Source: a virus
Length of the DNA stretch: 33,289 nt
Reading direction: 5' to 3' (one strand)
Virus record (IMG/VR): IMGVR_UViG_3300034082_001233
Coordinates: 1-33,289 of that record
Part shown: piece by piece, positions 19,718 through 20,654 of the stretch
Position numbering within the stretch: position 1 is the stretch's first letter
Layout: every line of letters begins with the position of its first letter
Translations under genes and position numbers: made by a program
Notes under the pieces: model-generated
Databases searched by the model: none
Told to the model about the DNA's origin: nothing
Seen by the model: the letters and a program-made list of their open reading frames with translations, nothing else

Positions 19718-19740
19718 GTTGTTGTGTTTAAAATGTTTCG

Positions 19741-20158
19741 GCGTTACCTGTCGCCATCGTCAGTGCAGGAGGAATACCTGCAGACATTTACAAAGAAACG
19801 GGAGACAAGAACGTGATAGATACCCATCACTTCAAGCCGGAGTCCCGACATCTGTTCGTTGCTAAAGGTCATCGTAAGCTATGCGGCTCTTTGCTTACTA
19901 CTTAGCCTATCCCATTTTTACCGCTCCGGTAGGTAGAGCGCTTAACATTTTAAAGATGTTGAACTTGTAGTCCTTTCGGCGTTCTATAGGGAATCTCTAG
20001 TGCTACTGACATCCGGTGTATCCGGTAGTTTCGCATTCCCGTCTCATTTCCGCTCCGGTAGTAAGCCACTTAGTCACCTAGGTGAGGGTGGGCTGCGCCG
20101 GATAAGTGAGAGACAAACAGTGAAAGAACTTCGGGGCTAGTTATCGTCATCCCCGTTG
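19741..20158 (-). ncRNA. Large structured leader RNA or ncRNA (about 420 nt)
   Basis: No protein frame of note. On the minus strand many helices form: CGGGG/CCCCG at the 5' end; CACTTA/TAAGTG (20,109-20,104 with 20,072-20,067) enclosing TCACCTAGGTGA; a 9-bp long-range helix GCTTACTAC (20,066-20,058) with GTAGTAAGC (19,901-19,893); GGGAAT/ATTCCC (20,040-20,035 with 19,994-19,989); CGCTC/GAGCG (19,940-19,922); AACAT/ATGTT; TGCAGG/CCTGCA (19,782-19,764); GGCG/CGCC near the 3' end. The motif ACCGGAGCGG occurs twice. It resembles ornate phage RNAs in style; I match no known class. Confidence 0.65.
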
Positions 20159-20164
20159 ACAATG

Positions 20165-20195
20165 CAAACATACAACCCCTTTGCAGATTAGCAAA
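20165..20195 (-). promoter_or_regulatory. Main leftward promoter
   Basis: Minus strand TTTG (20,195-20,192), exactly 19 bp, TATGTTTG (20,172-20,165): a full match to the Bacteroidota consensus. The start is expected near 20,158, at the 5' end of the structured RNA. A GTTAA-N6-GTTAA pair (20,205-20,220) sits just upstream and could bind a regulator. Confidence 0.8.
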
Positions 20196-20273: not shown

Positions 20274-20308
20274 ACGCACATGCGCGCATACGTGTACGCG
20301 TACGTGTA
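20274..20308. other. 35-bp alternating purine-pyrimidine tract
   Basis: From 20,274 to 20,308 bases strictly alternate purine and pyrimidine, with several CG and GT/AC steps (for example TGCGCGCATACGTGTACGCG). Such tracts favour Z-DNA under negative supercoiling. It stands out as GC-rich within an AT-rich origin-like region. Confidence 0.5.
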
Positions 20309-20638: not shown

Positions 20639-20654
20639 TGTTCCACGTGGAACA
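20639..20654. other. Perfect parS-like palindrome
   Basis: TGTTCCACGTGGAACA is a 16-bp perfect palindrome and fits the broadly conserved chromosomal parS consensus TGTTnCACGTGnAACA, bound by ParB. It is the only such site in the window and no ParA or ParB gene is seen here. It lies between two TTAAC pairs in the origin-like region. Confidence 0.7.

Follow-up and report, generated by a model that had tools for sequence, protein, structure and literature searches.

A DNA record of 33,289 bases from a Bacteroidetes phage (the window, meaning the whole stretch analysed) carries between its two gene arms what is probably the leader of a long leftward early operon, one that mimics host rRNA leaders and has a hammerhead ribozyme at its 3' end. 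The ribozyme is a further member of the known hammerhead class. What is new, as far as we found, is the joining of a terminal hammerhead to a large mosaic RNA and to mimicry of the rRNA operon; in the open-access literature neither this RNA nor a phage leader joining rRNA-type boxA signals with a hammerhead was found. The first-pass annotation of the region had overlooked both the type III hammerhead at the 3' end and the boxA-like motif near the 5' end.

The intergenic region and its promoter

The leftward genes occupy the left 19.7 kb of the record, where their ORFs succeed one another from 19717 to the left end. The right part of the window holds terminase, portal, and virion genes pointing rightward. 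Neither strand holds an ORF of at least 60 aa from 19718 to about 20160, in agreement with the earlier description of the region as free of genes. The first leftward ORF (65 aa) had no Pfam or PHROG match. Between the two arms stands a leftward-facing, minus-strand promoter of the Bacteroidetes type, in which the two elements are separated by exactly 19 nt (Table 1). The consensus promoter claimed previously was thereby confirmed as a pattern (TTTG-N19-TATGTTTG), and its activity is presumed. Read from the position of the promoter, transcription would start at about 20161-20157. A search of 84,980 prokaryote genomes with the terminase gave no relative, so there was no prophage for the window's lineage, and a nucleotide search of the INPHARED phages with the region gave no match.

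Upstream of the promoter, TTAAC/GTTAA repeats cluster between 20200 and 20760, roughly tenfold denser than in the genome overall, and near 20 kb both GC and AT skew reverse; this stretch is a probable replication origin. A Z-DNA-prone, 35-nt alternating purine-pyrimidine tract lies at 20274-20308, and close relatives carry alternating tracts of 19-65 nt with different sequence at the same place. A perfect parS-like palindrome, TGTTCCACGTGGAACA, occupies 20639-20654 and recurs with one change at the same place in the loci L003 and L004. The RNA might serve this adjacent origin, for example as a primer or an origin-proximal regulator. The repeat cluster directly upstream (14 in 600 nt versus 1.4 expected), the tract, the palindrome, and the skew flip all accord with such a role. 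However, transcription heads away from the repeats, and distant relatives have the leader and the hammerhead without the repeat cluster, so that we regard an origin function as improbable.

Table 1. Positions of the leader elements in the window and of miniature tRNA-like elements in related phages
Feature	Position	Strand	Basis or remark
-33 promoter element TTTG	20192..20195	(-)	sequence; 19-nt spacing to -7; also in L003, L004
-7 promoter element TATGTTTG (Bacteroidetes TAnnTTTG)	20165..20172	(-)	sequence
5' hairpin, CGGGG 20155-20151 / CCCCG 20136-20132	20132..20155	(-)	boxB place in rRNA leaders
boxA-like motif AGTTCTTTC	20122..20130	(-)	same motif after hairpin in relatives and upstream of Bacteroidetes 16S
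RNA domain I: helix A 20114-20110/20045-20041 (GUCUC/GAGAC), helix B 20102-20098/20058-20054 (UCCGG/CCGGA)	20041..20114	(-)	covariation
Repeat CTACCGGAGCGG, copy 1	20050..20061	(-)	includes one strand of helix B
Repeat CTACCGGAGCGG, copy 2	19921..19932	(-)	exact 12-mer repeat
Predicted free structured RNA, ~375 nt	19783..20160	(-)	inferred from promoter and hammerhead; leaders conserved in relatives
Type III hammerhead	19731..19789	(-)	Rfam RF00008 match 19790-19730, 32.6 bits, E 8.7e-5; covariation over 13 sequences
First leftward ORF, 65 aa	19520..19717	(-)	ATG 13 nt past hammerhead end
Miniature tRNA-like elements	L097:1302-1260, L134:1027-985, L110:1421-1379 and 229-187	(-)	
Miniature tRNA-like elements, further loci	L109 (several), L108, L094, L013, L016, L017, L137, L139		

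The hammerhead ribozyme and its conservation

At curated thresholds Rfam returned no match in the region, and the hammerhead appeared when an E-value threshold was applied. The Rfam gathering threshold of 48.5 bits, a curation cut-off and not a defining biochemical feature, was reached neither by the window, the lowest-scoring of those scored by Rfam here, nor by the relatives (38.6-44.3 bits). All hammerheads scored in this way thus fall below the default threshold, and a default search misses the window's ribozyme. The window holds all elements of the core, AAAUGU-C/UGCAGG...CCUGCA-CUGACGA-(U)-GGCG...CGCC-GAA-ACAUUU (slash, cleavage site), including the U-H cleavage site, CUGANGA in the form CUGACGA, and GAAA. 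Cleavage is predicted between 19783 and 19782. The one extra U before stem II is common to the window and L108, which suggests a functional sub-form.

To keep the RNA from serving as its own bait, relatives were collected through their terminase protein and, for one set, through a leftward gene. In 2.56 Mb of these protein-chosen loci, a strict hammerhead finder gave 16 matches, representing 13 distinct lineages. All 16 were on the leftward strand, 10-19 nt upstream of an ATG, and the same finder gave no match in mononucleotide-shuffled sequence. Besides the window, 12 phage lineages have the hammerhead at the same place, with terminase identity down to ~31%. In a hand alignment of the 13 sequences, stems I and II were paired in every sequence at every shared position, and two to four pair types occurred at 9 of the 10 shared positions. 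Stem III showed two invariant pairs followed by variable positions, mostly compensated. The three helices accordingly stand in type III order with compensatory changes across the 13 lineages. Core and covariation together identify the element as a ribozyme, and its cleavage is a prediction from sequence. A chance likeness to a hammerhead in an unremarkable 5' untranslated region could account for the sub-threshold Rfam score and for the ordinary folding energy reported below, but 13 lineages have this ribozyme at one and the same place, with covariation, and shuffles have none, which leaves chance with hardly any probability. The first-pass annotation had tied its finding to conservation in related phages; such conservation was found, and the finding survived.

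Five close relatives (L003, L004, L005, L034, and L089) have the leader and lack the hammerhead. In three of them a different, conserved closing stem, GGCAUGGG...CCCAUGCC and variants, stands where the hammerhead would be (L004:2297-2245, L005:4324-4275, and L034:4814-4760, all minus strand). The 3' ends of the L034 and L004 leaders matched no other known ribozyme in Rfam; the closing-stem element could be another processing element or ribozyme. Inside the leaders of L004 and L034 lies a T-arm-like hairpin, GGGUUUGAUUCCC (L004:2479-2448 and L034:4995-4964, minus strand), closed by a covarying stem, GCAUG/CAUGC or GCAUA/UAUGC.

The hammerhead was also present at the same place in an Elemovirus isolate, Flavobacterium phage elemoE_6-9C, whose leader recurs at ~98-100% identity in each of the 68 elemo records; its predicted cut follows the GUA at about 8146 of L314 (NC_055854.1). 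Annotated opposite this leader are two small hypothetical proteins, gp57 and gp58 (L314, 8230-8568, plus strand); these annotations are probably spurious. A pattern scan of IMG/VR yielded 97 contigs with a close form of the ribozyme core. In the returned loci, all 99 core matches formed a complete type III hammerhead. Because 92 of these 99 had an ORF start at most 60 nt downstream, hammerheads just before phage genes are common. An rRNA-like leader accompanied only 3 of 86 pattern-scanned hammerheads by a strict criterion, and the idea that every phage hammerhead comes with such a leader was rejected. Since many hammerheads precede ORFs without this leader, ribozyme and boxA are separable. 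One locus, L320, has three hammerheads (11723, 11252, and 9758, minus strand), each 3-5 nt before an ATG; this is ribozyme punctuation of an operon.

Elements of another type also precede leftward genes. Two degenerate tRNAs in the window (7498-7426 and 7304-7236, minus strand) end ~32 and 20 nt before ATGs. ARAGORN detects one of the two, without a clear anticodon, and their role may be in processing and not that of a tRNA. Miniature tRNA-like elements also occur in the leftward arms of this group of phages, with an acceptor stem of ~7 bp, a linker of ~10 nt (AUGGUYGYA), and a T arm, without D or anticodon arm; most stand ~14-20 nt before ATGs of leftward genes. A covariance model, itself built from 13 such elements, gave 23 matches in 1.4 Mb, all 23 on the leftward strand. 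ARAGORN called no gene for these elements in the loci tested, no Rfam family matched them, and the nearest Rfam resemblance, to mascRNA, was weak. They resemble minimal RNase P substrates and look like processing sites.

The rRNA-type 5' end and the body of the RNA

In E. coli rRNA leaders the order of elements is boxB, boxA, boxC, and boxA is necessary and sufficient for the antitermination complex (PMC10250234). In the window, a hairpin at the place of boxB precedes the boxA-like motif. The leaders of the relatives likewise have a hairpin just past the transcription start, followed by AGUUCUUU, AGCUCUUU, or CGCUCUUU; a hairpin is predicted at this place in most leaders, with differing sequence. 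For comparison with the host, Bacteroidetes rRNA leaders were retrieved from public genomes through a pattern for the 16S start, with no motif assumed. The commonest 8-mers upstream of 16S were GTTCTTTG/TTCTTTGA, narrowly above A-rich words. The motif [AT]GTTC[AT]TTGA occurred in 52 of 104 upstream regions versus none of the shuffled ones, and 44 of the 52 had TAnnTTTG 19-138 nt upstream (median ~41). TAnnTTTG stands 5' of the boxA-like motifs in host rRNA leaders and in the related phage leaders, where the distance from promoter to boxA is 19-53 nt. Among the leaders anchored by a hammerhead, 9 of 14 had the strict promoter-to-boxA pattern, versus a mean of 0.035 in shuffles and 1% of control tiles; the other five matched only under relaxed promoter or boxA patterns, and boxA is short. 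The AATTTGG...TAnnTTTGCA layout of several host promoters was also found in L107, L108, and MW202828, and the L003 leader has AGTTCATTGACA, a form found in many host leaders. The phage leader thus has both the host-type boxA motif of an rRNA-type antitermination leader and the boxB-boxA order, which in host leaders was judged by eye.

The part of the RNA body nearest the 5' end, domain I, consists of two helices around the conserved loops UAGGGnAAYGCAY ... CACCAAA ... AAAUGCA. In a hand-placed alignment of ten sequences, in which near-identical rows (e.g. L070 and L087) count more than once, helix A was paired in 50 of 50 cells and helix B in 46 of 50, and each position showed two to four pair types. 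The window's own ensemble likewise made both helices probable (0.75-0.98). The middle of the RNA is a mosaic of varying length, in which modules common to some phage pairs are absent in others. A wider scan for domain I added a single phage, L413, itself a mosaic, in which two modules stand in tandem. Such a middle fits a fast-changing partner and weakens the case for one conserved function.

The structural claims made for the RNA earlier fared differently. The repeated motif is real and longer than had been stated, an exact 12-mer, CTACCGGAGCGG; any repeated 12-mer occurred in 0 of 500 shuffles. The 9-bp pairing of 20066-20058 with 19901-19893 is an exact complement, but as a long-range helix it was rejected. 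Its pairs had an ensemble probability of 0.005, its last pair (20058) collides with the covarying helix B, and 17% of the dinucleotide-shuffled versions of the RNA contained at least one perfect 9-bp helix. Covariation in this helix was sought and not found, the relatives being too distant for a direct test; other helices covary. The count of at least eight helices was not above chance in itself, and folding energies were ordinary compared with shuffles (z -1.16 for the leader and +0.26 for the predicted released RNA). Thermodynamic z-scores were uninformative and were discarded as evidence for a structured RNA. What argues for such an RNA is conservation, not energy, and on this comparative evidence that part of the description stands. 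The proposed size of ~420 nt does not, as ~375 nt would be expected after the hammerhead cut.

No Rfam family covers the RNA, and matches to TYMV_upPK, bxd_7, mir-297, and sno_ZL1 were dismissed as chance or repeat-driven. A large ornate RNA of the GOLLD/ROOL kind, forming a multimeric cage, would agree with an element that is phage-encoded, structured, free of ORFs, and near ROOL in size. However, the GOLLD and ROOL models gave no match in Rfam searches even at permissive thresholds, no tRNA island adjoins the RNA, and GOLLD and ROOL as described have neither boxA nor a hammerhead at the end (PMC12286853). The resemblance suggested by the first-pass annotation was therefore abandoned, and membership in this group is very improbable.

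Proposed course of events and known systems

In the proposed leader, host RNA polymerase would start at the rRNA-type promoter, whose sequence is present. The nascent 5' hairpin and the AGUUCUUU boxA would then recruit the host NusB-S10 antitermination complex, and polymerase could cross the untranslated, structured RNA and ~19 kb of small leftward genes with no Rho-dependent termination. Motif and position are observed here, and recruitment and read-through would follow from established rRNA biology. The RNA would fold, with helices A and B of domain I supported by covariation. The hammerhead would cut after 19783, giving an RNA of ~375 nt that carries a triphosphate at its 5' end and a cyclic phosphate at its 3' end; 65 nt would separate the 5'-OH of the remaining mRNA from the first ATG. 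The freed RNA may persist as a separate, probably abundant early RNA. The two possibilities raised before, a free early RNA or a regulatory leader, are both supported at once by the antitermination-type 5' signals and the 3' hammerhead.

Compensatory changes preserve domain I even between distant phages, and a free early RNA acting in trans is for this reason favoured by a modest margin over a purely cis role. Our tentative suggestion is a class of phage trans-acting RNAs that imitate the host rRNA operon (promoter, hairpin, and boxA) and are released by a hammerhead, in phages that punctuate early transcripts with ribozymes and miniature tRNA-like RNase P sites. Alternatively, the leader could act purely in cis. 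Hairpin, boxA, and RNA would modify polymerase, as HK022 put and lambda nut do, and the hammerhead would only trim the 5' end of the mRNA, leaving the cut-off RNA without a job. This would explain the contrast between a variable middle and conserved ends made up of promoter, hairpin-boxA, and hammerhead, and it is in line with the frequency of hammerheads directly before ORFs in phages and with phi13:2, where a AGTTCATTGACA leader of only ~140 nt comes without a large RNA. However, compensation in domain I across ~31% terminase identity exceeds what an antitermination tag should need; in the rRNA operons of E. coli, boxA on its own is enough to form that complex (PMC10250234). We consider the cis-only leader somewhat doubtful but a serious rival.

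The arrangement offers a natural setting for the phage hammerhead, a ribozyme of mostly unknown function in bacteria and phages, which would here free a structured RNA from an operon under rRNA-type signals. It also suggests that a phage can borrow the host rRNA antitermination machinery via RNA signals alone. Rfam lacks this phage RNA family, whose members come from uncultivated phages and, in the form of leader plus hammerhead, from the cultivable Elemovirus. Since the Elemovirus phages, which infect Flavobacterium sp. BAL314, can be grown in the laboratory, what a large phage RNA does can be tested directly.

Several known systems share parts of this arrangement. The lytic haloviruses HF1/HF2 are described as having a hammerhead 13 nt before the start codon of a helicase gene (Perreault et al. 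2011, PMC3088659), the same distance as in the window. They differ in being archaeal viruses with a variant core and a helicase gene downstream, and, unlike the window, they are not known to have a large leader RNA. With GOLLD and ROOL the window RNA has in common that they are large structured phage RNAs of unknown function; it differs in the lack of a sequence or model match and of a tRNA neighbourhood, in its mosaic interior, and in its hammerhead end. The ribozyme agrees with RF00008 in its complete core, three stems, type III topology, and covariation, whereas it scores below the gathering cut-off, forms the end of a large leader RNA, and carries the extra U in the window and L108. Like lambda nut and HK022 put, the element is leader RNA transcribed from a phage's early operon and would let polymerase run past terminators. 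In contrast to these, its boxA is of the host rRNA type, its hairpin lies upstream as in rrn, no N-like protein is identified with it, and it would be released by a ribozyme. Bacterial rrn leaders have promoter, hairpin, and boxA in the same order, and the motif itself stands upstream of Bacteroidetes 16S; in place of the rRNA, the window has a phage RNA and a ribozyme, followed by protein genes.
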